From Chryseobacterium camelliae (lineage in GTDB: Bacteria > Bacteroidota > Bacteroidia > Flavobacteriales > Weeksellaceae): DNA of 64,000 nt. Made by a program: the position numbers and the translations under genes. The notes under the pieces are model-generated. The model was not told the DNA's origin. It did not search any database and saw nothing but the letters and a program-made list of their open reading frames with translations. Of this stretch, positions 11,410 to 25,334 are shown piece by piece. The stretch covers positions 2,553,501 to 2,617,500 of the forward strand of contig NZ_CP115859.1 of NCBI RefSeq assembly GCF_027920545.1, written 5' to 3'. How positions within the stretch are numbered: position 1 is the first letter of the stretch; the number at the start of each line of letters is the position of its first letter.

Positions 11410-12494
11410 TGAATTCATTTTATAAACTTAAAACCGTGAAGGTTCAGAAAGATACTTCCGATGCGGTAAACGTAGCGGTAGAAATTCCTGAAGAACTGAA
11501 AGATAAATTCAGGTTCAAGCAGGGACAGTATCTTAATTTCCGAATGATGATCGACGGAAACGAAGAAAGACGTTCTTATTCGATCTGTAATGCTCCGAGT
11601 GAAAAGAGCAATACGTTGGAAGTATTGGTGAAATTATTGGAAAACGGAAAAGTTTCAGGTTATTTCAACGAGCATCTTCATATGGATGAAGTTCTTGAAG
11701 TAATGCCTCCAATGGGCGGTTTCAACACTTCTTATCACCCGACCAACGTGAAAACTTATATTGGTCTGGCTGCAGGAAGCGGAATTTCTCCGGTGTTGTC
11801 AAACATTAAAGAAAGTCTTTACCAGGAACCTAATTCTAATGCCTATTTATTCTACAGCAACAGAAGCATGAATCATGTGATGAAAAAGGCTGAGATCGAT
11901 AAATTGGTAGAGCAGTTCAACGGAAGACTGAAAGTTGTTTATTTAGTAAGCCGTGAGCAGCATGAAGACCCGATTTTTGAAGGAAGAATTTCTCCTGAAA
12001 AATTAGATCAGCTGTTTGAAAGATATGCAGATATCGATGTGAAAGAATCTACATTCTTTATTTGCGGACCTTCAGAAATGATCAAAGGAATCGCAGATTA
12101 TTTAAAGAAAGATAAAAAAGTACCTGCAATTCAGGTTTTATTTGAATATTTCACTGCTCCTGACGAAGAAAATACGGAGGAAATGAGTGATGAGTTCAAA
12201 GCCATTGCCAATATTGAAAGTATGGTAACGGTAATTATCGATGATGATGAATATTCGTTCCACCTGAATTCAAAAAAAGAAAGTATCTTAGATAAAGCAT
12301 TGAAAGACAATCTTCCTGTACCCTTTGCATGTAAAGGAGGAGTTTGTTGTACGTGTAAAGCGGAGGTTTTGGAAGGAGAAGTTTTCATGGAGAAAAACTA
12401 TGCGCTTACCGAAGAAGAAGTAGCCAGAGGTTATGTTCTTACCTGCCAATGTCACCCGACAACGAATGTGGTGATGCTTAATTATGACGTATAA
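11409..12494 (+). CDS. paaE: Phenylacetyl-CoA epoxidase reductase subunit PaaE
   Basis: This 361-aa protein passes electrons from NADPH to the diiron epoxidase. The N-terminal ferredoxin-reductase part binds FAD (RRSYSICNAP, residues 54-63) and NAD(P) (GLAAGSGISP, residues 119-128). The C-terminal part is a plant-type 2Fe-2S ferredoxin with ligands C308, C313, C316 and probably C346. Domain order and length agree with PaaE. In this operon the reductase comes before paaABC, not after paaD as in E. coli. It overlaps paaK by 1 nt. Confidence 0.95.
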   Translation: MNSFYKLKTVKVQKDTSDAVNVAVEIPEELKDKFRFKQGQYLNFRMMIDGNEERRSYSICNAPSEKSNTLEVLVKLLENGKVSGYFNEHLHMDEVLEVMPPMGGFNTSYHPTNVKTYIGLAAGSGISPVLSNIKESLYQEPNSNAYLFYSNRSMNHVMKKAEIDKLVEQFNGRLKVVYLVSREQHEDPIFEGRISPEKLDQLFERYADIDVKESTFFICGPSEMIKGIADYLKKDKKVPAIQVLFEYFTAPDEENTEEMSDEFKAIANIESMVTVIIDDDEYSFHLNSKKESILDKALKDNLPVPFACKGGVCCTCKAEVLEGEVFMEKNYALTEEEVARGYVLTCQCHPTTNVVMLNYDV

Positions 12495-12496
12495 TT

Positions 12497-12569
12497 AATG
12501 TAACAATTTACCGGTTTGCCGATGTAACAATCATTGGTACATTGCTAGACTGATACATTGCTAAATTGA
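12497..12569. repeat. Palindromic repeat, copy 1 (paaE-paaA gap)
   Basis: The left arm is built of TGTAACAAT / TTTACC units and the right arm of CATTGGTA / GATACATTG units. The two arms are imperfect reverse complements. It fills the whole gap between paaE and paaA. Confidence 0.75.
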
Positions 12570-12575
12570 AAAATT

Positions 12576-13514
12576 ATGGATTTAGAAAAATTTGTACAAT
12601 ACGTACACGAAGAAAATAAAGTAGAACCAAAAGATGTAATGCCGGATGATTACAGAAAATTATTGGTTCGTCAGATTTCACAGCATGCACATTCTGAAAT
12701 TGTTGGAATGTTGCCGGAAGCCAACTGGATTTCAAGAGCACCTTCATTGAGAAGAAAAATGGCTCTTTTGGCTAAAGTTCAGGATGAAGCAGGTCATGGT
12801 TTATATCTTTATTCTGCAACGGAAACTTTAGGAGACGGAAGTATCAGAGCTGACAGAGATGCTACTTACGACGATATGTTGGAAGGAAAAGCAAAATATT
12901 CAAGTATTTTCAACTATCCGACATTAAGCTGGGCAGATATCGGTGCGATCGGCTGGTTGGTTGATGGTGCTGCGATTATGAACCAGGTAATGTTGATGGG
13001 AAATTCTTATGGTCCGTATTCAAGAGCGATGGTGAAAATCTGTAAAGAGGAATCTTTCCACCAAAGACAAGGATACGAGATTTTGATGGCGCTTTGCCGT
13101 GGTACAAAACAGCAGAAAGAAATGGCCCAGGCTTCGTTAAACCGTTTTTGGTGGCCGGCTTTAATGATGTTTGGTCCGAATGACGACAGCTCGCCAAACT
13201 CTAAAATCTCTATGAATTACAGAGTAAAAAGAGAAAGTAACGACAGTCTTCGTCAGAGATTTATTGATGTTACCGTTTCTCAAGCTGAATTCTTAGGATT
13301 AACGATTCCGGATAAAGATCTTAAATGGAATGAAGAAAGACAGCATTATGATTTCGGAGAGCTCCCTTGGGATGAATTCATGGAAATCCTGAAAGGAAAC
13401 GGACCTGCCAACAAAAAGCGTATCGAAACCAAGAGAAAAGCTCAAAGAGAAAATTCTTGGGTAAAAGAAGCAGCGGCGGCATTTGCAGAAAAACAACAAA
13501 AAGAAGTAATATAA
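12576..13514 (+). CDS. paaA: Phenylacetyl-CoA 1,2-epoxidase catalytic subunit PaaA
   Basis: At 312 aa this is the alpha subunit of the multicomponent oxygenase that converts phenylacetyl-CoA to the 1,2-epoxide. Ferritin-like diiron ligands are visible: E41 (HSEIVG), the pair E71-x2-H74 (DEAGHG) and a later E-x2-H in [10 protein letters not shown]. The length and the conserved block [16 protein letters not shown] match PaaA closely. It sits between two repeat elements, with paaB following after about 110 bp instead of the usual tight coupling. Confidence 0.97.
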
Positions 13515-13515
13515 T

Positions 13516-13617
13516 AATGTAACAATATACCAATGTAAAAATGTAACAATCAATTGTTATTCTGAGCAAAGTGAAGAATCTCATTGGTAAATCGGTACAT
13601 TGATACATTGTTAAATT
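13516..13617. repeat. Palindromic repeat, copy 2 (paaA-paaB gap), with inserted core
   Basis: The left arm is 13516-13553 and the right arm 13582-13617. Between them, at 13554-13581, lies a 28-nt core (TTGTTATTCTGAGCAAAG...) that is nearly identical to the core in the copy at 22723-22820. Confidence 0.78.
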
Positions 13618-13626
13618 AATTTGACT

Positions 13627-13908
13627 ATGGCAAATTTAGATATGTGGGAAGTGTTTATTCAGACTAAACCGGGATTATCTCACAAACACGTTGGAATTGT
13701 ACAGGCACCAACAGCAGAAATGGCTTTGCAAAATGCAAGAGACGTTTATACAAGAAGAAAAGAAGGAACTTCAGTTTGGGTAGTTCCGAGTAAATATATT
13801 GTGACCTCGGAAGGGGTGGACAAAGAAGCGTTCTTCGATCCTGCTGATGACAAATTATACCGTCACCCTACTTTCTACGAGATTCCAAACGATGTAAAAA
13901 ATATGTAA
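13627..13908 (+). CDS. paaB: Phenylacetyl-CoA epoxidase subunit PaaB
   Basis: This small subunit of 93 aa bridges the PaaAC heterodimers of the epoxidase. The typical opening MWEVFIQTKPGLSHKHVG and the block ALQNARDVYTRRKEG are present. I chose the ATG at 13627 rather than the TTG two codons upstream because the family begins just before this block and the TTG would lie at the end of the repeat element. Confidence 0.95.
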   Translation: MANLDMWEVFIQTKPGLSHKHVGIVQAPTAEMALQNARDVYTRRKEGTSVWVVPSKYIVTSEGVDKEAFFDPADDKLYRHPTFYEIPNDVKNM

Positions 13909-13913
13909 AACAG

Positions 13914-13975
13914 CGATTGGCTGTTAGCTGCTTGCAATTTGCCAAAAGCTATACGCCAAAAACCAAAAGCTAAAA
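13914..13975. repeat. GCCAAAAGCTAT-type dispersed repeat (paaB-paaC gap)
   Basis: This A/C-rich stretch contains GCCAAAAGCTATACGCCA (13941-13958). The reverse complement of the same 18-mer, with one mismatch, occurs at 63647-63664 in the rRNA spacer. It is a different family from the TGTAACAAT palindromes. Confidence 0.6.
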
Positions 13976-13977
13976 TA

Positions 13978-14727
13978 ATGAACCCATTATATAATTATTT
14001 ATTAAAACTAGCAGACGACAGTTTCATTATGGGACAGCGTTTGTCTGCATGGTGCGGTGAAGGTCCTTATTTGGAGGAAGATATTGCATTAACGAATATT
14101 GCGTTGGATGAGCTAGGCCAGGCGAATAACTTTTACGTTTATGCTTCAAGAGTGATCGATAACGGAAAAAGTGAAGATGATTTGGCATTTTTAAGATACG
14201 AGCACGAATACTTAAATGCGCACTGGACAGAGCTTCCGAACGAAGATTATGCTCAGACGATTCTAAAAGTGTATGTTTTTGCAACGTATCAGAAATTGAT
14301 GTACGAAGCATTATCAAACTCTGCGAATGAAGAACTTTCTGCGATTGCTCAAAAATCTTTGAAAGAAGTAAGGTATCATTATACTCACGCTGCTTCCTGG
14401 ATGAAAATTTTCGCGCAGGGAACAAAAGAAAGTAAGGCTCGTTTGGTAAAAGCGATTGAAAATATCTGGGAATATACAAAAGGTTTATTTGCAAAAACAG
14501 AAGGAGAAGATGATTTGGTCGCTTTAAATATTGCTCCGAATACAGATGCTCTTTACGAAGAATTCCTTGCTATTACACAGAAAGATTTTGCTGATTTCAA
14601 ATTAGAATATCCGACAAATTCTTTCATGCAGCCAAAATCAAGAACGGGTTATCACACTGAGTATTTTGGATATATTCTTTGTGAGTTACAGTATATGCAG
14701 AGAGCATATCCTGGTTGTACTTGGTAA
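13978..14727 (+). CDS. paaC: Phenylacetyl-CoA epoxidase structural subunit PaaC
   Basis: This 249-aa ferritin-like subunit pairs with PaaA. ALTNIALDELGQANNFYVYAS and the later LKEVRYHYTHAASW helix match the PaaC family. An upstream TTG (13939) would add 13 residues encoded by repeat sequence, so the ATG at 13978 is preferred. The gene is followed by a half element of the palindromic repeat family. Confidence 0.95.
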   Translation: MNPLYNYLLKLADDSFIMGQRLSAWCGEGPYLEEDIALTNIALDELGQANNFYVYASRVIDNGKSEDDLAFLRYEHEYLNAHWTELPNEDYAQTILKVYVFATYQKLMYEALSNSANEELSAIAQKSLKEVRYHYTHAASWMKIFAQGTKESKARLVKAIENIWEYTKGLFAKTEGEDDLVALNIAPNTDALYEEFLAITQKDFADFKLEYPTNSFMQPKSRTGYHTEYFGYILCELQYMQRAYPGCTW

Positions 14728-14734
14728 ATTTTTA

Positions 14735-14772
14735 AATGTAACAATGTAGCAGTTTATCAATGTAACAATTTT
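14735..14772. repeat. Palindromic repeat, copy 3 (left arm only, after paaC)
   Basis: Only the left-type arm (AAATGTAACAATGTAGCAG...) is recognisable. No matching right arm follows before the small membrane gene. The rest of the gap (14773-14887) is unrelated and has repeated ACTTTG/GTTAA words. Confidence 0.65.
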
Positions 14773-14887
14773 GAACTGTTATTAAGTTGTACTATTTGTT
14801 GACTTTGTTAAGTGAAACGCCTTTGTGAACTTAAAAGCAGTTAACGGCCAAAAAACATAGTGCACTTTGCGTTTAAAATTTTTAAGT

Positions 14888-15133
14888 ATGAAAAGGAGTT
14901 ACTTTAAAATCTTGATTACTGTTTTGCTGATTTTAATTCCGGTGTTTTATTTTGGAATTTTTAATTCAAAAGTCAGCTTAACATATGAAACAAATAATCC
15001 TGGAGATTGTATTTCATTAATAACAGGAAGAAATTTATGTCAGGACATAGAACAAATGAAAATATTAATTGCTGTTGATATTATTATAATTGTTCTTTTG
15101 ATGTTGTTTAGGAAAAAAATAATAAGAGATTGA
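14888..15133 (+). CDS. Small two-TM membrane protein inside the paa operon
   Basis: This 81-aa protein has a hydrophobic N-terminal segment (about 5-25), a polar stretch with two Cys (PGDCISL, RNLCQDI) and a second membrane segment (about 56-74) ending in RKKIIRD. I do not recognise a family. Its stop overlaps the TTG start of paaD by 4 nt (TTGA), so it is translated together with paaD. An upstream TTG at 14867 is possible but would lie in repeat-like sequence. Confidence 0.6.
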   Translation: MKRSYFKILITVLLILIPVFYFGIFNSKVSLTYETNNPGDCISLITGRNLCQDIEQMKILIAVDIIIIVLLMLFRKKIIRD

Positions 15134-15594
15134 AAAATCCTTTAGAAATATTAGAATTAGTTCCCGATCCGGAAATTCCGGTAATCAATATCGTGGAATT
15201 AGGCATTGTAAGAGAAGCGAAAGTTACAAGCGAGAATTCTTGTGAAGTAACCATTACGCCGACTTATTCTGCCTGTCCTGCTATGTTTACCATTGAGGAA
15301 GACATTATAAAGATTATGAAAGAAAACGGTTGGGAAGCGAAAGTAGTCACCAAAATGTTTCCGATTTGGACAACAGACTGGCTGACGGATGAAGCGAGAG
15401 AAAAACTTCGTGCTTACGGAATCACTCCTCCGGAAAAAGGAGCAGATGAACATCATATCGGGAAACCGAAAAAATGCCCTCGGTGTGGTTCTGAGCATAC
15501 CAAACAGATCAGTAGATTTGGATCCACGCTGTGTAAGGCATCCTATCAATGTTTAGATTGTTTAGAGCCTTTTGACTATTTTAAATGTCATTAA
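15130..15594 (+). CDS. paaD: PaaD, MIP18/DUF59-type maturation factor of the epoxidase
   Basis: This 154-aa protein has an N-terminal DUF59 domain (PDPEIPVINIVELGIVR near residue 12) and a C-terminal Cys cluster (CPRCGSEH, CKASYQCLDC, CH) typical of PaaD. It is needed for an active PaaABCE complex, probably in metal or Fe-S assembly. No in-frame ATG exists before the conserved PDPEIPV block, so the TTG at 15130 is the most likely start, coupled to the upstream small membrane gene. Confidence 0.92.
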   Translation: MKNPLEILELVPDPEIPVINIVELGIVREAKVTSENSCEVTITPTYSACPAMFTIEEDIIKIMKENGWEAKVVTKMFPIWTTDWLTDEAREKLRAYGITPPEKGADEHHIGKPKKCPRCGSEHTKQISRFGSTLCKASYQCLDCLEPFDYFKCH

Positions 15595-15653
15595 AAATGA
15601 TTAACTTTATAAAACAATCATTTTAATATTAACCTATTAATAACCAGTATAAT

Positions 15654-16454
15654 ATGTATACACAAATTGACATTGAAACGCATTTTGACGGAAAACTTAA
15701 AATTGCTTATCTCAATCAGCCGGAAACAATGAACGCGCTTACAAAACCTTCTTTATCGGATCTTAAAGATTTTATTAAAGATTGTAGCGAAGACGAAACG
15801 GTAAGATGTGTGGCGATTTCAGGAAGAGGAAGAGCTTTCTGTTCCGGTCAGAATTTGGATGATGCTTTTGTACAAGGGAATGAACATCATGATAATGACA
15901 TTATCAGAAAAATTGTAACAGATTATTACAACCCTCTGGTTAAGGAAATTACACGCTGTAAAAAACCTGTAGTTGCATTGGTAAACGGACCTGCTGTAGG
16001 AGCCGGAGCAATGTTGGCATTAATTTCAGACTTCGTTTTAGCAGTTGATAAATCATATTTTGCTCAGGCATTTTCAAATATCGGTTTAATTCCTGATACG
16101 GGAGGAACCTATTTCTTACCAAAACTATTGGGAAGACAATTGGCAAATTATTTAGCATTTACAGGTAAAAAACTGTCTGCTGAAGAAGCTAAATCTCACG
16201 GCTTGGTTGCGGAAGTTTTCAACGAAGAAGAATTCTCGCCAAAATCAATGGAAATCCTTGAGAAAATGTCAAATATGCCGACTGCAGCTATTAAATTAAC
16301 CAAAAAAGCTTTCGCCGCATCTTACAATAATACATTGAAAGATCAATTGGAGCTGGAAGGAGATTTACAGCAGGAAGCTGCAGAAACAGAAGACTTTATC
16401 GAAGGTGTAAATGCCTTTTTACAAAAAAGAAAACCTAATTATAAAGGAAGATAA
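15654..16454 (+). CDS. paaG: Enoyl-CoA hydratase/isomerase, PaaG-like epoxide isomerase
   Basis: At 266 aa this is a crotonase-fold enzyme. AISGRGRAFCSGQNLDD and the oxyanion loop GPAVGAGAMLALISDFVLA are clear, and AFSNIGLIPDTGGTYFLPKLLGR has the Asp expected at the catalytic position of PaaG-type isomerases. It probably turns the ring-1,2-epoxide into oxepin-CoA and also isomerises later double bonds. It is the only crotonase-type gene in the operon proper. Confidence 0.88.
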   Translation: MYTQIDIETHFDGKLKIAYLNQPETMNALTKPSLSDLKDFIKDCSEDETVRCVAISGRGRAFCSGQNLDDAFVQGNEHHDNDIIRKIVTDYYNPLVKEITRCKKPVVALVNGPAVGAGAMLALISDFVLAVDKSYFAQAFSNIGLIPDTGGTYFLPKLLGRQLANYLAFTGKKLSAEEAKSHGLVAEVFNEEEFSPKSMEILEKMSNMPTAAIKLTKKAFAASYNNTLKDQLELEGDLQQEAAETEDFIEGVNAFLQKRKPNYKGR

Positions 16455-16458
16455 GAAT

Positions 16459-16554
16459 TAATATAACAATGTACCAATGTAACAGTTTACCAATTATGGA
16501 ATTATTGGAATTCAATTAAATTGTTACATTGTTACATTGATACACTGTTACATT
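16459..16554. repeat. Palindromic repeat, copy 4 (paaG-paaH gap)
   Basis: The left arm (AATATAACAATGTACCAATG...) and right arm (AATTGTTACATTGTTACATTG...) are almost complete. The right arm ends directly at the ATG of the 3-hydroxyacyl-CoA dehydrogenase gene. Confidence 0.78.
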
Positions 16555-17688
16555 ATGACGAATGTAGGAATTATCGGTGCCGGAACAATGGGAATCGGCA
16601 TTGCACAAGTAGCCGCAACGAACGGATGCAAAGTTTGGGTCTATGATGCCAACGCAAAACAAGTAGAAACGGCAACCGTAGGTTTGGAAAAAACATTGAC
16701 CAAATTGGTTGATAAACAAAAAATTTCAGCAGAGAAAATGACTGAAATTTTAGCTAACATTTCTATTGCTACAGAATTAAAAGACTTCAAAGATTGCGAA
16801 CTGATTATTGAAGCAATCATTGAAAACAAAGAAATTAAAACCAAAGTTTTCACAGAATTAGAACAGCATGTTTCTGAAAGTTGTGTGATTGGTTCCAATA
16901 CATCCTCTATTTCCATCACCTCTCTGGGTGCGGAATTACAAAAACCGGAGCGTTTCATTGGAATTCACTTTTTCAATCCGGCTCCATTGATGCCTTTAGT
17001 TGAGGTTATTCCATCTTTATTAACAGAAAAAACTTTAGCGCAAAAAATTTATAATCTGATGAAAGATTGGGGGAAAACTCCAGTGATTGCTAAAGATATT
17101 CCAGGATTTATCGTAAACAGAATTGCTCGTCCTTACTATGGTGAAGGATTGAGAATTGTTGAAGAAAACATGGCAACGGTAGAACAGGTAGATGAAGCCA
17201 TGAAAATATTAGGGAACTTTAAAATGGGACCTTTTGAATTGATGGATTTAATTGGAGTTGATGTGAATTTTTCCGTAACAAAAACGGTTTACAACGAATA
17301 TTTCTACGATCCGAAATACAAGCCGTCTCTTCTTCAGCAAAGAATGTCGGAAGCCAAACTTCACGGCAGAAAAACAGGAAAAGGTTTCTACGATTATTCT
17401 GAAGGAGCGGAAAAACCTGTTGCGGAAAAAAACGATGCTCTTTATCAGTATATATTCTTGAGAATTATCTCTATGTTGATTAATGAAGCGGTTGAAGCAA
17501 AAAGACTAGGCGTTGCGAATGATGAAGATTTGGAATTGGCAATGCAGAAAGGCGTGAATTATCCAAAAGGATTATTAGCTTGGGGAAAAGAAATAGGATA
17601 CGCAAAAATCTCCGAAACCCTGCAAAATCTTTACGAGGAATATCAGGAAGAGAGATACAGACAAAGCCCGTTACTACGTAAATTATAA
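16555..17688 (+). CDS. paaH: 3-hydroxyacyl-CoA dehydrogenase PaaH
   Basis: This 377-aa NAD-dependent enzyme oxidises 3-hydroxyadipyl-CoA. The Rossmann motif GAGTMGIGIA is at the N-terminus. The catalytic region shows SNTSSISIT and IGIHFFNPAPLMPLVEV (the His of the His-Glu pair), then KDIPGFIVNRI. The C-terminal helical domain contains a second, partial copy. The ATG at 16555 is chosen because the TTG at 16537 lies inside the repeat. Confidence 0.94.
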   Translation: MTNVGIIGAGTMGIGIAQVAATNGCKVWVYDANAKQVETATVGLEKTLTKLVDKQKISAEKMTEILANISIATELKDFKDCELIIEAIIENKEIKTKVFTELEQHVSESCVIGSNTSSISITSLGAELQKPERFIGIHFFNPAPLMPLVEVIPSLLTEKTLAQKIYNLMKDWGKTPVIAKDIPGFIVNRIARPYYGEGLRIVEENMATVEQVDEAMKILGNFKMGPFELMDLIGVDVNFSVTKTVYNEYFYDPKYKPSLLQQRMSEAKLHGRKTGKGFYDYSEGAEKPVAEKNDALYQYIFLRIISMLINEAVEAKRLGVANDEDLELAMQKGVNYPKGLLAWGKEIGYAKISETLQNLYEEYQEERYRQSPLLRKL

Positions 17689-17769
17689 AATGTATCAATG
17701 TATCAGTTTACCAATATAACAATATATACAACCATTGGTAAATTGCTAGATTGTTAAATTGTTACATTA
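17689..17769. repeat. Palindromic repeat, copy 5 (after paaH)
   Basis: The left arm begins right at the paaH stop (AATGTATCAATGTATCAG...). The right arm (CCATTGGTAAATTGCTAG...) ends 6 bp before the next start codon. Confidence 0.78.
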
Positions 17770-17774
17770 GAATT

Positions 17775-18086
17775 ATGGATATAGAAGGGTTTAGAGCCGA
17801 ATTGGAAACAAGGCTTATCATTGAAAAAGACTACATCATTCAGGAGCTTTCTTCGATACATAATGATCGGGAAAAGTTGGAATTACTGGGAAAATTCAAT
17901 GAAAAATACAAAGAGCTGATTAAAAGAATGGCGAATGAAGAAGGTATCGATTTAAATGAGCTCTATCAAACCGAAGTCTCATCAAATTCAGAAAATCTTT
18001 CATATGAACAGATAATTCTTGGTAAAACCATGAATATTTATGACAAATTGGTTGATGAATTATATGAAGAAATAACACAAATCTGA
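17775..18086 (+). CDS. Small acidic helical protein of unknown function in the paa operon
   Basis: This 103-aa soluble protein is predicted to be mostly alpha-helical (AELETRLIIEKDYIIQELSSI, ELLGKFNEKYKELIKRM). No motif is recognised. The ATG at 17775 is preferred over the upstream TTG at 17751 inside the repeat. It follows paaH and precedes a small membrane gene and paaI on the same strand. Confidence 0.6.
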   Translation: MDIEGFRAELETRLIIEKDYIIQELSSIHNDREKLELLGKFNEKYKELIKRMANEEGIDLNELYQTEVSSNSENLSYEQIILGKTMNIYDKLVDELYEEITQI

Positions 18087-18133
18087 AGGCTGCCATTATA
18101 TTAGAGTCGGTTGTTAAATAAAGTATTAAAATT

Positions 18134-18382
18134 ATGCTTAAAAGAATTTTTACAAAGAAAAACTTTCTGAGATCTCTCGTAAGCGCAATCATTTTTAGTA
18201 TTGCTTTTTTTCTGATTAAACTTCTATTTTATTATTTTGAATGGGATGATGAAAAAAGCATAAATATATATGGTCTTGTATTTTATTTCATCTTTATGTT
18301 TTTAGCTTTCTTCATTTTAGACGGCAGAGATTACACTTGGAAAGATGTTATAAAATTAAAAAATTTAAATAAAAATAAATGA
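18134..18382 (+). CDS. Small two-TM membrane protein upstream of paaI
   Basis: This 82-aa protein has two hydrophobic segments (about 13-33 and 45-62) joined by an acidic loop, and a basic C-terminus. No family is recognised. Its stop overlaps the paaI start by 4 nt (ATGA), so the two are coupled. Confidence 0.6.
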   Translation: MLKRIFTKKNFLRSLVSAIIFSIAFFLIKLLFYYFEWDDEKSINIYGLVFYFIFMFLAFFILDGRDYTWKDVIKLKNLNKNK

Positions 18383-18792
18383 ACCCGAGACAGGTTGCAG
18401 AATATATGTTCGATCAGGATTATTTTTCCCAATGGATGAATATCAAACTAATCGAAGTAAAAGAAAATTATTGCTTAATAGAAATGCCCATTAAAAAAGA
18501 AATGATTAACGGGCTAAAAACGGTTCACGGAGGAGTTACATTTGCTTTTGCAGATTCTGCATTGGCATTTTCGTCTAACAATTCCGGAGATGCTGCCGTT
18601 GCACTGAATTGCATCATCAATTTTACCAAAGCTGGAAAAGAAGGAGATACCTTCAGAGCAGAAAGCACTTTGGTAAACGAGACCAGAAAAACAGCAGTTT
18701 ACGATATTAAAATTACCAATCAAAACGAAGAGTTAATTGCAAAATTTGTCGGAACGGTTTATAAAATCGGAAAAAAAGTAACTGAACTTTAA
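18379..18792 (+). CDS. paaI: Hotdog-fold acyl-CoA thioesterase PaaI
   Basis: This 137-aa protein has the hotdog helix motif GLKTVHGGVTFAFADSALAFSSN, whose HGG and Asp residues are typical of PaaI. It probably hydrolyses phenylacetyl-CoA or hydroxylated CoA thioesters that would tie up CoA. It is coupled to the preceding small membrane gene by a 4-nt overlap. Confidence 0.92.
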   Translation: MNPRQVAEYMFDQDYFSQWMNIKLIEVKENYCLIEMPIKKEMINGLKTVHGGVTFAFADSALAFSSNNSGDAAVALNCIINFTKAGKEGDTFRAESTLVNETRKTAVYDIKITNQNEELIAKFVGTVYKIGKKVTEL

Positions 18793-18795
18793 GCT

Positions 18796-18835
18796 TAATG
18801 TAACAATGTAATAATTTACCAATCTAACAATTTTT
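18796..18835. repeat. Palindromic repeat, copy 6 left arm (before the four-helix-bundle gene)
   Basis: A left-type arm (AATGTAACAATGTAATAATT...) ends 3 bp before the four-helix-bundle start codon. Its right arm is not adjacent; a right-type arm follows after the gene at 19203-19240. Confidence 0.75.
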
Positions 18836-18837
18836 AA

Positions 18838-19203
18838 ATGATGATAAATTTTGAAAATAATCCATTAATTGAGAAGACGGTTCAATTTTCATTAGATATT
18901 ATTGAATTTTGTGAGTTGTTAGAGGAAAAAAGAAAATTTGTTATTGCAAAACAATTATTACGTTCCGGAACAAGCATTGGAGCAAATGCATTTGAAGCTC
19001 AAAACCCACACAGCAAGAATGATTTTGTAAATAAAATTAAAATTGCTGCTAAAGAATTAGAAGAAACAAAATATTGGCTCTATCTCTGTAAACATTCTAA
19101 AAACTATCCTTTCAATGAAAAATTAGAACTTCAAATTACCGAGATTGGAAAAATTATATATAAAATACTAAGTACAAGTCTAAATAAAAACCAATCAATA
19201 TAG
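18838..19203 (+). CDS. Four-helix-bundle protein (23S rRNA intervening-sequence protein family)
   Basis: This 121-aa protein has the family hallmarks KQLLRSGTSIGANAFEAQ and KIAAKELEETKYWLYL. The family was first found inside intervening sequences of 23S rRNA genes and is common in Bacteroidota intergenic regions. Its function is unclear. Here it has no visible link to phenylacetate metabolism and lies exactly between a left and a right arm of the operon's palindromic repeat, as if it were cargo. An ATG one codon downstream is an equally good start. Confidence 0.88.
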   Translation: MMINFENNPLIEKTVQFSLDIIEFCELLEEKRKFVIAKQLLRSGTSIGANAFEAQNPHSKNDFVNKIKIAAKELEETKYWLYLCKHSKNYPFNEKLELQITEIGKIIYKILSTSLNKNQSI

Positions 19204-19240
19204 CATTGGTAAACTGTTACATTGCTATATTTTTACATTA
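19203..19240. repeat. Palindromic repeat, copy 6 right arm (after the four-helix-bundle gene)
   Basis: The right-type arm (GCATTGGTAAACTGTTACATT...) begins at the last base of the four-helix-bundle stop codon and ends just before paaJ. Confidence 0.75.
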
Positions 19241-19247
19241 AAATATT

Positions 19248-20453
19248 ATGAACAACGTATACATCATAGATTATGTTAGAACTCCCATTTCAAAATTACA
19301 GGGAGGTTTATCAGAAGTGCGTGCCGATGATTTAGCGGCAGTTGTCCTTAAAGAAATAGTTGCAAGAAATCCTGAAGTTCCTGTTGAGGAAATTGAGGAT
19401 GTTATTTTCGGATGTGCCAATCAGGCTGGTGAAGATAACAGAAACGTAGCAAGAATGGGACTTTTATTGGCTGGGCTTCCTTACAAAATAGGAGGGGAAA
19501 CCGTAAACAGGTTGTGTGCTTCGGGAATGTCGGCGGTGGCTAATGCTTTCCGTTCGATTGCTGCAGGAGAAGGTGAAATTTATATTGCGGGTGGAGTGGA
19601 GCACATGACGCGTTCGCCTTATGTAATGTCAAAACCAAGTGCTGCTTTCGGTAGAGATAGTCAGATGTTTGATACGACTTTCGGATGGAGATTTATCAAT
19701 CCGAAAATGAAAGAATTATATGGTGTTGACGGAATGGGAGAAACTGCGGAAAACTTGGCAGACATCCACAATATCAGTCGTGAAGATCAGGATAAATTTG
19801 CCCTTTGGTCTCAGCAAAAGGCGACTAAAGCTCAGCAAAGCGGAAGATTAGCGGAAGAAATCGTAAAAGTGGAAATTCCGCAGAGAAAAGGTGAACCGAA
19901 AATCTTCGATACGGATGAATTCATCAAGCCTACTTCTTCAATGGAAGGATTAGGAAAACTTCGACCTGCTTTCAGAAAAGAAGGAACCGTAACGGCTGGA
20001 AATGCTTCAGGAATGAATGACGGAGCTGCGGTTTTAATTTTAGCAAGTGAAGAAGCTGTAAAAAAATATGGTTTGAAGCCGAAAGCTAAGATTTTAGGAT
20101 CATCTGTTGCCGGTGTTGAGCCGAGAATTATGGGAATCGGACCTGTTGAAGCGACTCAGAAGCTTTTAAAAAGACTGAACCTTTCATTAGATGATATGGA
20201 CATCATCGAATTGAACGAAGCTTTTGCAGCTCAGGCTTTAGCGGTAACAAGAACATTAGGATTAAAAGATGACGATTCAAGAATCAATCCAAACGGAGGT
20301 GCCATTGCAATTGGTCACCCACTGGGAGTTTCCGGAGCAAGAATTGTTGGCTCTGCGGCTATGGAACTTCAGAAACAGGATAAAAAATATGCATTGTGTA
20401 CCCTTTGTATCGGTGTCGGACAAGGTTATGCAATGATTATTGAAAAAGTATAA
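19248..20453 (+). CDS. paaJ: Acetyl-CoA acyltransferase (3-oxoadipyl-CoA thiolase) PaaJ
   Basis: This 401-aa thiolase cleaves 3-oxoadipyl-CoA, and probably also the dehydro intermediate, to acetyl-CoA and succinyl-CoA. The acyl-accepting Cys lies in NRLCASGMSAV. NEAFAAQ, the His in GGAIAIGHPLGVSGARI and the second Cys in CTLCIGVGQG complete the thiolase signature. The length and FGCANQAGEDNRNVARM block fit the PcaF/PaaJ subgroup. Confidence 0.95.
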   Translation: MNNVYIIDYVRTPISKLQGGLSEVRADDLAAVVLKEIVARNPEVPVEEIEDVIFGCANQAGEDNRNVARMGLLLAGLPYKIGGETVNRLCASGMSAVANAFRSIAAGEGEIYIAGGVEHMTRSPYVMSKPSAAFGRDSQMFDTTFGWRFINPKMKELYGVDGMGETAENLADIHNISREDQDKFALWSQQKATKAQQSGRLAEEIVKVEIPQRKGEPKIFDTDEFIKPTSSMEGLGKLRPAFRKEGTVTAGNASGMNDGAAVLILASEEAVKKYGLKPKAKILGSSVAGVEPRIMGIGPVEATQKLLKRLNLSLDDMDIIELNEAFAAQALAVTRTLGLKDDDSRINPNGGAIAIGHPLGVSGARIVGSAAMELQKQDKKYALCTLCIGVGQGYAMIIEKV

Positions 20454-20457
20454 CATT

Positions 20458-20537
20458 TTCAATAATATAACAGTGTAACAGTTTACCAATGTACTAATAT
20501 TGTTAGACTGTTACATTGTTAAATTGGTACATTAAAT
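20458..20537. repeat. Palindromic repeat, copy 7 (paaJ-paaY gap)
   Basis: The left arm (AATATAACAGTGTAACAG...) and right arm (TTAGACTGTTACATTG...) are separated by a few bases and fill the gap. Confidence 0.78.
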
Positions 20538-20546
20538 TAAAATTTT

Positions 20547-21140
20547 ATGAATATTTACTCATATCACGGAATTCGTCCCATCATTAAACCATCTGCATAC
20601 ATTCATCCGCAAGCGGTGATTATCGGAAATGTTGAAATCGGCGAAGAAGTTTATATCGGTCCGAATGCGGTAATCCGTGGCGACTGGGGTAAAATTATCA
20701 TCAAAGACGGTGCAAATGTTCAGGAAAACTGTACCCTTCATGTTTTTCCCGGGATTGAAACCATTCTGGAAGAATCTGCACACATTGGTCATGGAGCAAT
20801 TATTCATTCCGGGCACATCGGTAGAAACTGTTTGGTTGGAATGAATGCAGTGGTGATGGATAAAGCAGTTATTGGCGATGAATGTATTATCGGAGCATTA
20901 GCTTTTGTTCCTGCTAATTTTAAATGTGAGCCAAGAAAATTGATTGTTGGAAGTCCTGCAAAAATCATCCGTGATGTTTCTGATGAAATGATCAAATGGA
21001 AAACAGAAGGAACAAAATTATATCAGGAACTGGCAAGAGAAGGTAAAGACGCCATTTTGCCTTGTGAGCCTTTTACGGAATATGTTCAGCAGATTCCAAC
21101 CAAAATTGTAGATTACAGCATTTGGGATGATGTAAAATGA
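20547..21140 (+). CDS. paaY: Gamma-carbonic-anhydrase-like hexapeptide protein PaaY
   Basis: This 197-aa left-handed beta-helix protein has hexapeptide repeats (IGNVEIGEEVYIGPNAVIRGDWG) and the His cluster HVFPG, HIGHGAIIHSGHIG that binds metal in the gamma-CA fold. In paa clusters PaaY acts as a thioesterase on 2-hydroxycyclohepta-1,4,6-triene-1-formyl-CoA. The C-terminal extension after residue 165 is typical of PaaY compared with plain gamma-CAs. Confidence 0.9.
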   Translation: MNIYSYHGIRPIIKPSAYIHPQAVIIGNVEIGEEVYIGPNAVIRGDWGKIIIKDGANVQENCTLHVFPGIETILEESAHIGHGAIIHSGHIGRNCLVGMNAVVMDKAVIGDECIIGALAFVPANFKCEPRKLIVGSPAKIIRDVSDEMIKWKTEGTKLYQELAREGKDAILPCEPFTEYVQQIPTKIVDYSIWDDVK

Positions 21141-21151
21141 TTTTTCTTACT

Positions 21152-21184
21152 AAACCTCATAGGTTTTTAAAACCTATGAGGTTT
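21152..21184. repeat. Perfect hairpin REP-like element, upstream copy
   Basis: A 16-bp perfect inverted repeat (21152-21167 with 21169-21184, core AACCTCATAGG / CCTATGAGGTT) sits 36 bp before the RAYT start codon. A second copy follows the gene. Confidence 0.85.
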
Positions 21185-21220
21185 AATTAAATATTAAAAC
21201 ACACAAATGAAGAAAAAGAA

Positions 21221-21799
21221 ATGTCAAATACAGAAAATTTTGAATGTGGTTATGTATACCATATTTACACTCATGCAAATGGAAAAGATTTAATTTTTAG
21301 GGAAGAAGAAAATTATAAATATTTTTTAGATAAGCTTGTAAAATATATTATTCCGATAGCTGAAATATATGCGTATTGTTTAATGTCTAATCATTTTCAT
21401 TTTTTAATAAGGTTTAAAAATTTAGACCAAATATCCAATGAGGGTGAGCATAAATATTTAATGAGACAGTTTAGTAACTTACTAAATGGCTATGCAAAAG
21501 CATATAATAAGAAATACAATAGAAAAGGTGCTCTTTTTCTTGATTTTTTAAAACGTAAGAGAGTGAATGATGAAAAGTATTTGATTAAATTATTTCATTA
21601 TATCCACAATAATCCTGTCAATCATGGATTTGTTGAAGATATTAATGATTGGAAATATTCATCTTATCATTCTTATATTAATTTGGCTAAAGAAAGTAAA
21701 ATTGAAAGAAAAGAAATGATGCAATATTTTGAAACAATAAAAGATTTTGTAGAATATCATAAATCAAACGTTGAATATGATTTTCTAACAATCGAATAA
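21221..21799 (+). CDS. REP-associated tyrosine transposase (RAYT, Y1/HUH family)
   Basis: This 192-aa single-strand DNA transposase of the IS200-like Y1 fold opens with GYVYHIYTHANGK. It has the HUH motif H58-F-H60 in MSNHFHFLIR and the probable catalytic Tyr at residue 127 in FHYIHNNPVNHG. RAYTs are associated with and mobilise REP hairpins, and one perfect hairpin lies on each side of this gene. It interrupts the paa operon between paaY and the esterase gene. The frame is intact. Confidence 0.9.
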   Translation: MSNTENFECGYVYHIYTHANGKDLIFREEENYKYFLDKLVKYIIPIAEIYAYCLMSNHFHFLIRFKNLDQISNEGEHKYLMRQFSNLLNGYAKAYNKKYNRKGALFLDFLKRKRVNDEKYLIKLFHYIHNNPVNHGFVEDINDWKYSSYHSYINLAKESKIERKEMMQYFETIKDFVEYHKSNVEYDFLTIE

Positions 21800-21814
21800 A
21801 ATAGAGTTTAACTC

Positions 21815-21847
21815 AAACCTCATAGGTTTCTAAAACCTATGAGGTTT
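21815..21847. repeat. REP-like hairpin, downstream copy
   Basis: A 15-bp inverted repeat (21815-21829 with 21833-21847) is nearly identical to the copy at 21152-21184. It begins 16 bp after the RAYT stop codon. Confidence 0.85.
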
Positions 21848-21886
21848 TGAATAAGGTTCGAAAAGACGATTAATAGTGAAAAAAGT

Positions 21887-22714
21887 ATGATCAAAAAACT
21901 TCTTATTTTCTGTAGTATTCTGTTTACATTTCAATTCATGGTTTTTGCCCAGAGTTCCAATGTAAAACCGTTAACTATTGGAGAAATAAGAACGATAAAG
22001 TCTAAGATTTTAAATGAAGAAAGAACTTTAAATATCTATCTTCCGCAAAATTTTGATAAAACAAAATCTTACCCGATCATTTATCTTCTGGATGGGAGCT
22101 TGAATGAAGATTTTATTCACGTTACAGGATTGATTCAATTCTTTAATCAAATGTATTCCATGCCGGAAACCATTGTGGTGGGAATTGCCAATATTGACAG
22201 GAAAAAAGATTTTACATTTCATACAGATTTAAAAGACTTACAGAAAGATTATCCTACAACGGGACACTCAGATCAATTCATCAGCTTTCTTGAAAAAGAA
22301 TTAAAACCTTACATCCGAAGTCAGTTTAAAACAACCGATAACTATTTATTCGGACAATCATTAGGCGGACTCTTAGCAACAGAAATTTTGTTGAAAAAAC
22401 CTGAAATGTTTACTAATTATTTTATCATCAGTCCAAGTTTGTGGTGGGATGATGAAAGTCTTTTAAAACAAGCCAATCAGTTACTCAGTAAAATTCCGGA
22501 TACCAAGAAATTTATTTATTTTTCTGTGGGAAAAGGAGAACATCCGGTGATGGTAAAAGATACGGAAGATTTATATGATGTTCTGAAAAAATCGGGTAAG
22601 AAAAACTGGATGGTAGAATATAAAATGATGGAAACAGACAACCACGCAACGATTCTTCACAGAAGTTTGTACGAAGGTTTGGTGAAATTGTTTCCTTATC
22701 AAGAACCGAAATAA
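21887..22714 (+). CDS. Secreted alpha/beta-hydrolase, esterase D/IroE-like
   Basis: This 275-aa protein has a signal peptide (cleavage near residue 21, VFAQS) and an alpha/beta-hydrolase fold. The nucleophile is S158 in FGQSLGG and a late His (DNHATILHRS) is the likely triad base. The pattern NIYLPQNFDKTKSYPIIYLLDG matches the putative esterase family PF00756. Its relation to phenylacetate is unknown. It may use the paa transcript, or it may have arrived with the RAYT unit. Confidence 0.85.
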   Translation: MIKKLLIFCSILFTFQFMVFAQSSNVKPLTIGEIRTIKSKILNEERTLNIYLPQNFDKTKSYPIIYLLDGSLNEDFIHVTGLIQFFNQMYSMPETIVVGIANIDRKKDFTFHTDLKDLQKDYPTTGHSDQFISFLEKELKPYIRSQFKTTDNYLFGQSLGGLLATEILLKKPEMFTNYFIISPSLWWDDESLLKQANQLLSKIPDTKKFIYFSVGKGEHPVMVKDTEDLYDVLKKSGKKNWMVEYKMMETDNHATILHRSLYEGLVKLFPYQEPK

Positions 22715-22722
22715 AATAAAAA

Positions 22723-22820
22723 ATATAACAGTCTAAAAATGTATCATTATAACAATTTTTTACAACTTGTCATTCTGAACGAAGTGAAGAATCTCATTGG
22801 TAACTGTTAAATTGATACAT
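22723..22820. repeat. Palindromic repeat, copy 8 (before paaZ), with inserted core
   Basis: The left arm (AATATAACAGTCTAAAAATG...) is followed by a 28-nt core at 22767-22794 (TTGTCATTCTGAACGAAG...) and then a right arm (CATTGGTAACTGTTAAATTG...). The layout is the same as at 13516-13617. Confidence 0.78.
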
Positions 22821-22838
22821 TATTAAAGTAAAAACTAT

Positions 22839-25334
22839 ATGGAAAAATTAAAAAACTATATCTACGGTGAATGGGTAGAAGGAAGCGGAAATGGAATTCC
22901 TTTGTACAATGCCGTAAACGGAGAGCAGGTTGCCATTTCCGATACGGAAGGTCTGAATTTTGAGCAGGCACTTGACTACGGAAGAACAATAGGGTACAAA
23001 AACCTTTCATCCATGACATTCTATGATCGTGGAGAAATGTTGAAAAAAGTAGCTCTTTATTTATTAGAAAGAAAGAAAAAATATTACGAATTATCTTATA
23101 AAACAGGAGCAACTCATGTTGATTCTTGGGTAGATATCGAAGGAGGTTTCGGTACGTTCTTTACCTATTCAGGATTGGCAAAAAGGATGCTTCCGAATAC
23201 TCCGTTTTGGGTAGATGGAGAAACTCAGAAGATTTCTGCTAACGGAACTTTCCTGGGAACTCATATCCTGACTCCGAGTGAAGGAGTTTCAGTACAGATT
23301 AATGCTTACAACTTTCCGGTTTGGGGAATGTTGGAAAAATTATCGACCTCTTTATTGGCAGGTGTTCCTTCAATTGTAAAACCATCTCCATTTGGATCTT
23401 ATTTAACCAACGCAGTTTTCCAGGATATGATTGAAAGCGGAATTCTTCCTGAAGGAGCTGTTCAATTAGTTTGTGGCGAACCGGGAAATATTCTGGATTA
23501 TGTTCAGGATGGAGATTCTGTATTGTTCACAGGTTCTGCAACAACAGGTAGGAAATTGAAATCTTTACCGTCAGTTGCAGGAAATGCGGTTCGTTTCAAT
23601 ATGGAAGCAGATTCTTTGAACTGTTCAATTCTTGGATTGGATGCAAAACCGGGAACTCCTGAATTTGATCTATTCATTAAAGAGGTTCGTAACGAAATGA
23701 CGACGAAAGCCGGACAAAAATGTACGGCGATCAGAAGAATCATCGTTCCTGAAAACTTAATAGGAGATGTTCAGCATGCGTTGGCAAAAGCTTTAGACCA
23801 GACAAAAATAGGAAACCCGTTGAGCAGAGAAACGAGAATGGGTTCTTTGGTTGGAAAACAGCAGTATGATGAGGTATTGAGAAAAGTTAACTTGTTAAAA
23901 GCTGAAACGGAACTTGTTTATGACGGGAAACATGAATTGGTAGATGCCAACTACGAAAATGGAGCATTTATGAGTCCGAAATTGTTCTTAAACGATTCTC
24001 CATTTACAAAAAACATCTCTCATGATGTCGAAGCTTTCGGCCCGGTTTCTACGTTAATGCCTTACAAAGACGCAGAAGAAGCGGCAGCTTTGGCAAAAAG
24101 AGGAAAAGGAAGCTTGGTAGGATCTATCATTTCTCATGACGATCAGTTCGTAGCAGAGACTTCCTGGAAAATGGCTTCTCAGCACGGAAGAATTTTCGTG
24201 TTGAACAGAGATAATGCAAAAGAAAGTACAGGTCACGGTTCTCCGCTTCCTACTTTAATGCATGGCGGACCTGGTAGAGCAGGAGGTGGTGAGGAAATGG
24301 GTGGACTGAACGGTCTTCATTTCTTCCTTCAGAAAACAGCGATTCAGGGCTCTCCGGATACGTTGACCGCAATTACTAAAATTTATCAGCAGGGTGCTGA
24401 GAAAAAATATTCAGATAAGCATCCTTTCCAGAAATATTTCGAAGAAGTGGAAGTTGGAGATTCTCTGGAAACTGCTGGAAGAACGGTTACTGATGCAGAT
24501 ATCGTGAATTTCTCTAATGTTTCTTGGGATCATTTCTACGCGCATACAGATGCTACAAGCTTAACGGGGACTATCTTTGATAAAACAGTTGCTCACGGAT
24601 ATTTCATCCTTTCTGCAGCAGCGGGATTATTCGTTTCAGGTAAAAAAGGACCGGTTATTGCGAACTACGGATTAGAAAACTGCTCATTCTTCAAGCCTGT
24701 TTATGCAGGAGATACCATTACGGTGTATTTAACAGCAAAAGAAAAAATCAACAGAGGAGTAAAAGGAAGAAATATTCCTTCAGGTGTGGTAAAATGGTTG
24801 GTTGAAGTGGTGAATCAAAGAGATGAGGTAGTTTGTGTGGCGACAATTTTAACGTTGGTAGCGAAACAATCTCCTTTCATCGATCTTAACTTAAAGAGTA
24901 TTCAAAAAGCTTTAAATGGCTTAACTGAATCTACTCAGCCAAATTGGGGTAAAATGTCTCCTCAGCAGATGATTGAACATTTAGAGCACGGCGTTTTGGT
25001 AAGTTTGGGTGAACCGGAAGCAGACAAATGCTTTACTCCTGAAGAACAGCTGGATAAATGGCAGGATTCTTTGTACAATCACAGAAAAATGCCGAAAGAT
25101 TTCCCTGCACCATTCTTATCAGAAGATGAAAAGCTGTTGGAATTAAGACACAAAAACCTTGAAGCTGCAAAAATTTCTTTCATGGATAATCTGAAAAGAT
25201 TCTCTATCTACTACAAAGAAAATCCACAGGCAGAACATATGAATTTTGTGTTCGGAAAGCTAAATAAAGAAATGTGGGAGTTAATGCACAAGAAACATTT
25301 TACGCATCATTTTGAACAGTTTGGATTGATTTAA
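22839..25334 (+). CDS. paaZ: PaaZ, bifunctional oxepin-CoA hydrolase/semialdehyde dehydrogenase with extra C-terminal DUF1569/DinB-like domain
   Basis: This 831-aa protein is about 150 residues longer than E. coli PaaZ. The ALDH domain (1-520) has E256 and C295 at the same numbers as the E. coli enzyme. The MaoC-like hydratase domain (about 530-675) has D564 and H569 in VSWDHFYAH for ring opening. After residue 682 follows an additional domain with MSPQQMIEHLEH (about 706-717) and FGKLNKEMWELMHKKHFTHHFEQFG (about 805-829). This is the pattern of DUF1569, a DinB-like four-helix family with His metal ligands. The gene is the last of the operon and is followed by a terminator. Confidence 0.95.
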   Translation: MEKLKNYIYGEWVEGSGNGIPLYNAVNGEQVAISDTEGLNFEQALDYGRTIGYKNLSSMTFYDRGEMLKKVALYLLERKKKYYELSYKTGATHVDSWVDIEGGFGTFFTYSGLAKRMLPNTPFWVDGETQKISANGTFLGTHILTPSEGVSVQINAYNFPVWGMLEKLSTSLLAGVPSIVKPSPFGSYLTNAVFQDMIESGILPEGAVQLVCGEPGNILDYVQDGDSVLFTGSATTGRKLKSLPSVAGNAVRFNMEADSLNCSILGLDAKPGTPEFDLFIKEVRNEMTTKAGQKCTAIRRIIVPENLIGDVQHALAKALDQTKIGNPLSRETRMGSLVGKQQYDEVLRKVNLLKAETELVYDGKHELVDANYENGAFMSPKLFLNDSPFTKNISHDVEAFGPVSTLMPYKDAEEAAALAKRGKGSLVGSIISHDDQFVAETSWKMASQHGRIFVLNRDNAKESTGHGSPLPTLMHGGPGRAGGGEEMGGLNGLHFFLQKTAIQGSPDTLTAITKIYQQGAEKKYSDKHPFQKYFEEVEVGDSLETAGRTVTDADIVNFSNVSWDHFYAHTDATSLTGTIFDKTVAHGYFILSAAAGLFVSGKKGPVIANYGLENCSFFKPVYAGDTITVYLTAKEKINRGVKGRNIPSGVVKWLVEVVNQRDEVVCVATILTLVAKQSPFIDLNLKSIQKALNGLTESTQPNWGKMSPQQMIEHLEHGVLVSLGEPEADKCFTPEEQLDKWQDSLYNHRKMPKDFPAPFLSEDEKLLELRHKNLEAAKISFMDNLKRFSIYYKENPQAEHMNFVFGKLNKEMWELMHKKHFTHHFEQFGLI

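Follow-up and report, generated by a model that had tools for sequence, protein, structure and literature searches.

The window analysed here, a stretch of 64,000 nucleotides of the Chryseobacterium camelliae genome, contains a small gene which occupies the gap between paaI and paaJ (names taken from the original prediction; Table 1). Its 121 amino acid product matches the family profiles 23S_rRNA_IVP (PF05635, 75.5 bits, cut-off 33.8) and four helix bundle protein (TIGR02436, 88.7 bits, cut-off 24), which agrees with its earlier description as a 23S-intervening-sequence-type protein, and has one relative of solved structure (PDB 2rld, E 3.5e-21). We refer to the protein as IVP and to the gene with its flanking repeats as the IVP element.

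The ORF is abutted at both ends by tandem octads of the CAATGTAA type. The resulting arms (18797-18823 and 19205-19231) are 85% complementary and 381 nt apart, with 71% complementarity over a 48-nt extension. On the left the octad stretch reaches to about 18833, ending 4 nt ahead of the ATG; on the right the arm starts 1 nt past the stop codon. The gene lies exactly between two complementary arms, as had been proposed. The complementarity of these flanks has an empirical P of 0.009 in a comparison with 334 control ORFs from the genome. Allowing up to 3 mismatches, the arm pattern was matched 10 times in the window, both arms included, and 0 times in 100 shuffles; the exact octad pattern gave 21 matches in the 3.44-Mb genome, 11 of them in the window (overlapping registers, five elements).

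Table 1. The IVP gene, its arms, its neighbours and the gene-less octad-family copies of the window
Feature	Position	Strand	Evidence
Octad-family element without gene	12492..12568	.	pattern search
Gene-less octad-family palindrome; loop contains another dispersed repeat	13504..13621	.	
Octad-family copy, looks one-armed	14735..14771	+	
Gene-less octad-family palindrome, loop 5 nt, before MTNVGIIGAGTMG gene (read as paaG-paaH gap)	16459..16555	.	
Gene-less octad-family palindrome	17689..17770	.	
paaI	18379..18792		
Left arm, octad repeat of AATGTAAC-type units	18797..18833	+	complementarity and pattern search
23S_rRNA_IVP / four helix bundle protein gene, 121 aa	18838..19203	+	PF05635, TIGR02436, PDB 2rld
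Right arm, reverse complement of left-arm units	19205..19241	+	complementarity to left arm
paaJ	19248..20453		
Gene-less octad-family palindrome, past paaJ	20461..20534	.	
Degenerate octad-family copy with nested second repeat	22741..22826	.	

The four copies entered in Table 1 as gene-less palindromes form hairpins whose loops measure about 0-38 nt, which bears out the earlier remark that the other complete copies have their arms close together. The paaG-paaH gap is occupied in six fetched loci of other species by a different IVP with AATTTGAA arms. The names paaG, paaH, carA, carB, groES, groEL, gmk, nadD, kdpA, kdpB, kdsB and lpx were assigned by reading translations, with no family search. 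A second dispersed repeat, of the GTCATTCTGA..GAAGTGAAGAATCTC type, is nested in octad palindromes of the window at about 13545-13585 and 22765-22800, and is found also in several carA-carB gaps (L342-L352).

Loci of the family, their orientation and predicted fold

The genome carries ten PF05635 loci (one broken, one short), each with a distinct flank sequence and all in tandem gene gaps. Their flank complementarity scores range from 11 to 25 against a mean of 10.9 for swapped flanks and differ from those of the 334 control ORFs (Mann-Whitney U test, p 7.6e-6); taken singly, P<0.05 is reached by six of the ten and not by the other four. One locus, between groES- and groEL-like genes, has weak arms (P 0.28).

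Of 60 genus genomes, 59 have PF05635. A set of 109 loci was composed of the ten own loci, 30 of the best-scoring genus hits, and 29 close and 40 more distant relatives of the window IVP, and falls into 21 sites, nine of them represented by a single locus. Flank complementarity reached the 99th percentile of the control ORFs in 74 of the 109 loci and the 95th in 83 (p 1.7e-11 over the medians of the 21 sites). Arms are weak at sites 2, 4 and 15 (median score 14), and none were detected at one of the 109 loci (L169). The best lag of arm periodicity is 7 at 13 sites, 8 at six and 9 at one, out of 20 scorable sites. Beyond the genus PF05635 was found in 157 of 198 Bacteroidota genomes of a phylum sample. 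In that sample the 30 best-scoring loci divide into 16 that exceed the 95th percentile for swapped flanks and 14 that do not, so that either the arm rule is weaker beyond the genus or the measure is too blunt. As a separate observation on heptads, about a dozen perfect tandem copies of GCAATAA stand between two genes at L034:17596-17698 (G000:C1:2497596-2497698), and the copy number of this array is perhaps variable.

Every one of the 21 sites lies between tandem genes (background 0.71, P 7e-4), and at 20 of them the IVP gene is co-directional with both neighbours (P 1e-5), the remaining locus (L010) being antisense. The putative insertions are thus between co-directional genes and nearly always in the sense direction. 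In the predicted minimum-energy RNA fold of positions 18790-19245 the arms pair (z -3.14). Covariation was examined for sites with at least four loci, leaving out nine broken or partial loci (L015, L019, L055, L109, L114, L128, L129, L142, L143). Paired changes on both arm sides numbered 5 against 2.0 for swapped arms at groES-groEL, 4 against 2.6 at kdsB and 2 against 0.7 at gmk-nadD, three sites which lean towards selection on the RNA. Own arms, however, were clearly better than swapped arms only at sites 1, 4 and 9, and RNAalifold gave no left-right pairs at paaI-paaJ or at the acyl-CoA site, so that covariation was set aside as proof of such selection.

Predicted fold and co-directional placement would be compatible with removal of the element from the mRNA. 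One explanation of the locus places selection on this RNA step: the arms would pair in the transcript and RNase III or a similar enzyme would remove the segment, as RNase III does, according to the available text of PMC4990558, with rRNA intervening sequences carrying S23 ORFs. Pairing of the arms and sense transcription at 20 of the 21 sites favour this explanation, as does the site between groES- and groEL-like genes, where the arms of the own copy are weak; against it are the antisense orientation of L010 and the weakness of arm covariation. We consider it doubtful, and compatible with the reading preferred below, in which gene and arms form one DNA unit.

Gene and arms at paaI-paaJ, carA-carB and other sites

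The original prediction stood or fell with the flanks of homologous genes. Close homologues, with 82-91% identity to the window IVP, sit at carA-carB and at a third site (L213, Epilithonimonas caeni, 91%) and keep the same octad arms, and distant IVPs have other units. IVPs at least 85% identical to the window IVP are found at paaI-paaJ in many species and at carA-carB in others. In the genus there are 12 carA-carB loci with octad arms, one copy being at 75% identity. A scan of named genomes gave 55 loci, composed of 21 at paaI-paaJ, 21 at carA-carB, one at the third site and 12 more distant ones; a few are broken or truncated. The named carA-carB copies belong to Chryseobacterium, Elizabethkingia occulta, Kaistella, Epilithonimonas, Halpernia, Cloacibacterium and others. 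Both paaI-paaJ and carA-carB are occupied by copies in C. paridis and C. lathyri.

At carA-carB the left arm encodes the C-terminus of CarA, ..M(Y/H)QFKNV(T/P/S)V, in 12/12 genus loci and 8/8 named loci checked. CarA ends in LMYQFKNVTV or near variants where the element is present and in ELMENFKK in the own genome; the end MNEFKNVPV in G019, which has no IVP gene there, may be read as a scar of the element. The IVP tree took in the window and the named loci except L209, L238, L248-L251 and L253, which leaves 48 of 55; in it the carA-carB copies form one clade with support 98/95. Gene and arms appear to relocate together, and to do so rarely, because the tree of 49 rows needs only three changes among four labels (paaI-paaJ, carA-carB, third site, outgroup). 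By-eye comparison of occupied and unoccupied gaps revealed neither a target-site duplication nor a clean pre-insertion site; the unoccupied gaps are mostly occupied by other repeats or genes.

Arm similarity tracks protein identity across the 21 sites (Mantel r 0.52, p 1e-4; nine sites single-locus). For pairs of loci from different sites the median arm SW score is 12 at protein identity <0.3 (2572 pairs) and 29-31 at identity >0.7 (241 pairs, from few site pairs). Sites 2 and 5 have proteins 65% identical and unlike arms. Another IVP subfamily, 22-27% identical to the window IVP, is present in 9 of 30 sampled carA-carB gaps and comprises two clades (87-99% identity within, 69-74% between) with two different arm units. 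The paaG-paaH-type IVP is about 50% identical to the window IVP and has AATTTGAA octads (six loci read).

The number of octads per genome follows the same pairing of unit and protein. The window octad has a median of 20.5 in 30 carriers of the window-type IVP and 6.5 in 88 others (p 2.7e-9, kinship ignored), the 88 including four genomes with decayed copies (G010, G033, G039, G097). The AATTTGAA octad has a median of 6.5 in 26 carriers of the paaG-paaH-type IVP, chosen from the hits by identity and nearness to PaaI (six inspected), and 1.0 in 92 others (p 1.2e-7, kinship ignored). Cross-tests of octad family against the non-matching IVP showed no effect (p 0.99 and 1). Some genomes lacking an intact window-type IVP are rich in octads (38, 33, 33 and 32). 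As to position, 6/12 AATTTGAA matches in G038 and 7/9 in G003 lie within 10 kb of the paaG-paaH-type IVP; octads cluster around the paa operon also in G060, for which no matching IVP is known, and are not clustered around the carA-carB copy of G032.

The paaI-paaJ gap itself was resolved in 116 of 118 genus genomes (G019 was not fetched, and in G025 PaaJ was not found near PaaI), with repeat units assigned by regular expression; one IVP match (G098) was set aside by hand because the 78-bp gap is too short for the gene. The window-type IVP is present in 23 of the 116 gaps, and window octads occur in all 23 as against 13 of the 93 other gaps (kinship ignored). Five of the 23 copies are decayed (G010, G032, G033, G039, G097) and two further ones carry one in-frame stop (G043, G049). 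The 65 short gaps lacking an IVP contain AAGC heptads (21), AATTTGAA octads (20), CAGAT heptads (12), the window octad (9) or no recognised unit (3). In short gene-less gaps the AATTTGAA unit is found in 11/17 carriers of its IVP and in 9/48 others (p 0.0014, kinship ignored); relative to these carriers, the roles of paaI-paaJ and paaG-paaH are reversed in the own genome.

The nine short gaps with window octads and no gene correspond to the empty elements which the original prediction had proposed to look for. Seven of them are near-identical (0-4 differences in 90 nt) and therefore probably represent one lineage and about one event. Six of the nine are in genomes with a window-type IVP at carA-carB, that is 6/8 of the carA-carB carriers against 3/57 others, a difference which, the gaps being near-identical, again amounts to about one event. 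One of the nine, a 37-bp remnant in G013, looks like an element stripped of nearly everything. The other 28 gaps are filled by other genes or long sequence; they measure 378-894 bp, their ORF often starts with MRKI..LLFGIS, and many have a right-side octad arm (L072, L075, L082, L097 and others of L263-L328). Outside the class that a kinship label assigns to the window, the paaI-paaJ gap is taken by a different IVP (21-29% identical) in 6 of 30 sampled loci.

These gaps bear on the order of events. Had the arms come first, palindromes of many units would already have been in the gaps, with IVP genes inserting or being captured between them; repeats of at least four units do occur in IVP-less paaI-paaJ gaps, and such gaps are hot spots which also take Y1 transposase genes, other ORFs and, outside the class of the window, other IVPs. 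However, window octads on either strand are absent from all 30 sampled carA-carB gaps without a window-type IVP and present in 12/12 with it, the arm unit follows the protein subfamily both across sites and within one site, and the IVPs of one genome keep different arms, which makes prior arms improbable.

The IVP protein is under strong purifying selection, with dN/dS of 0.05 at paaI-paaJ (15 named loci plus the window) and 0.06 at carA-carB (20 loci) and dS near 1 (L205, L208, L209, L235, L240, L251 and L238 excluded). Together with the co-directional placement, this would suit a resident operon gene, that is a host protein with a cellular role whose arms serve as a processing or attenuation hairpin, with little or no mobility. 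Long residence at one site points the same way: carA-carB is occupied across several genera, and a gmk-nadD-type site recurs in F. columnare, where, in the available text of PMC5524665, a four helix bundle gene is placed between the guanylate kinase and nicotinic acid mononucleotide adenylyltransferase genes. Against a resident gene stand its patchy presence in the genus, copies decaying in place, near-identical units at unrelated sites and the dispersed gene-less palindromes; we regard this explanation, too, as unlikely.

Transposases, reverse transcriptases and Avd

In profile searches the IVP ORF matched PF05635, with no Y1 match and no recognised transposase. The Avd profile of diversity-generating systems (DGR; Avd plus reverse transcriptase) gave 19.4 bits (NF033474), so that Avd is a distant sequence relative, but far below its cut-off of 80 bits. 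RVT_1 (PF00078) had 0 matches in the own genome, which differs in this from a DGR, and none in 28 of 60 genus genomes, being present in 32. A reverse transcriptase as a general need was rejected, since the own genome has ten IVP loci and no RVT_1 match. Y1_Tnp (PF01797) has matches in 54 of the 60 genomes, and the six without (G010, G019, G024, G029, G036, G055) all have PF05635; the PF01797 model misses the window's own RAYT-like ORF, so divergent Y1 proteins are possible in these six. Twelve of 13 inspected Y1 loci have complementary flanks of their own (scores 22-33), GC-rich hairpins unlike the octads, and the thirteenth ORF is truncated. A Y1 or RAYT protein is an unlikely mover of the IVP element.

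Movement in trans by Y1 (RAYT-type) transposases or a reverse transcriptase, with IVP as passenger or Avd-like partner, is favoured by the frequency of Y1_Tnp, its occasional nearness to IVP and the weak similarity to Avd, but is very improbable given the genomes without RVT_1 or PF01797 matches and the separate flanks of the Y1 loci.

Y1 genes were encountered at several places. Y1_Tnp lies about 1.4 kb upstream of PF05635 on the same strand, with a gene in between, in G059:C54, G001:C13, G043:C1, G005:C6, G006:C14, G038:C1, G032:C1 and G048:C3. A Y1 transposase-like gene (MSTFRQIYYQIVFSTKHRK) is present in the carA-carB gap of G018, G014, G058, G043, G040 and G034 (L353, L354, L357, L359, L362, L371), and PF01797 matches fall in several of these gaps, a gap thus common to two unrelated element types. 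In the window a RAYT-like ORF (21221-21799; NF047646, 61.5 bits, cut-off 80) lies between palindrome copies at 21152-21191 and 21807-21847, and 21152-21847 is a REP/RAYT-type unit in the same gene cluster as the IVP.

The IVP element and known systems

The reading we prefer is that the gene and its two arms are probably one palindrome-ended DNA unit of about 0.45 kb, with a 23S-IVP-type four-helix-bundle protein as its sole gene. It has the look of a very small mobile element, of a type not described so far, and the earlier idea of the gene as cargo of the repeat in a small mobile unit is supported by the same arms at other sites and by the empty and decayed elements of the paaI-paaJ gap. That idea had not anticipated the multiplicity of arm families, the strength of purifying selection, the scarcity of relocation or the placement as in an operon. 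Sequence comparison shows that the gene and its arms are found together at unrelated sites, that the arm unit goes with the protein subfamily, that palindromes of the same unit without the gene are scattered through these genomes and commoner with the matching IVP, and that at one and the same site the gene decays between its arms.

S23/23S_rRNA_IVP ORFs are described in rRNA intervening sequences of Coxiella and Leptospira and in rRNA inserts of CPR bacteria in the available text of PMC4990558 and PMC11270868, the former giving no known function for S23p-type proteins. The inserts described there have, like the IVP element, one ORF of the same protein family, about 0.4 kb of length and complementary ends. 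The IVP element has the complementary terminal arms, but lies in an intergenic gap of protein-coding genes (paaI-paaJ) and not inside a 16S or 23S rRNA gene; its arms are tandem octads or heptads of many families, with gene-less copies dispersed. Strong purifying selection acts on its protein; the Coxiella ORF, by contrast, is described as undergoing reductive evolution. Rfam gave no match in positions 12000-23500 of the window, nor in 34.9 kb around the ten own-genome IVP loci.

The REP/RAYT system, in the available text of PMC2817692, likewise has a gene between inverted palindromes, palindrome and protein that vary together, and gene-less palindromes which are dispersed, commoner with the matching gene and partly clustered nearby. 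The IVP element shows the inverted palindromic flanks (at L205, L210, L211, L215 and L217 one flank reads as a full hairpin) and dispersed repeats commoner with the gene (kinship ignored), but in place of a Y1 (HUH) transposase it encodes a four-helix bundle without known catalysis. Its arms are AT-rich octad or heptad tandems, whereas REPs are short GC-rich hairpins, and its protein is slow-evolving, whereas rayt genes are said, in the available text, to evolve fast. MITEs and other non-autonomous palindromic repeats are also short palindromic intergenic units, but the IVP element has a gene-bearing form without recognised transposase, and no target-site duplication was found by eye. The element works like REP/RAYT minus the transposase and resembles an rRNA intervening sequence minus the rRNA; it lacks a defining feature of each and is classed with neither. 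In the open-access literature we found no paper linking 23S-IVP genes to intergenic palindromes, which is not proof of absence.

For a palindrome-ended unit of this kind the following mechanism can be proposed. IVP would recognise the hairpin of its own octads or heptads, either as RNA or as single-stranded DNA, and the gene-less palindromes would be non-autonomous relatives multiplied with its help, as REPs are with RAYTs. Relocation would be rare and carried out by host enzymes, because IVP matches no known catalytic domain and the own genome lacks an RVT_1 match; we know of no catalytic protein that moves the element. Since the arms fit so closely to the start and stop codons, and are predicted to pair in the transcript, the element may be tolerable inside operons, with putative trimming of the RNase III type as in rRNA intervening sequences. 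More tentatively, it is possible that 23S-IVP proteins act on specific hairpins as mobility or maintenance factors, each subfamily serving its own octad or heptad palindrome. In Bacteroidota they would make up a large class of intergenic elements that lack a transposase and are accompanied by gene-less followers, and the rRNA intervening sequences would be the special case which landed in rRNA.

The PF05635 family gains from this a testable role, since within the genus its genes are found in palindromic elements that have gene-less followers; these elements would stand beside the REP/RAYT pair as a counterpart without a transposase. An origin is offered for the periodic palindromes in the intergenic gaps of operons such as paa and carAB, and whether bacteria have removable mRNA inserts like those of rRNA becomes a testable question.
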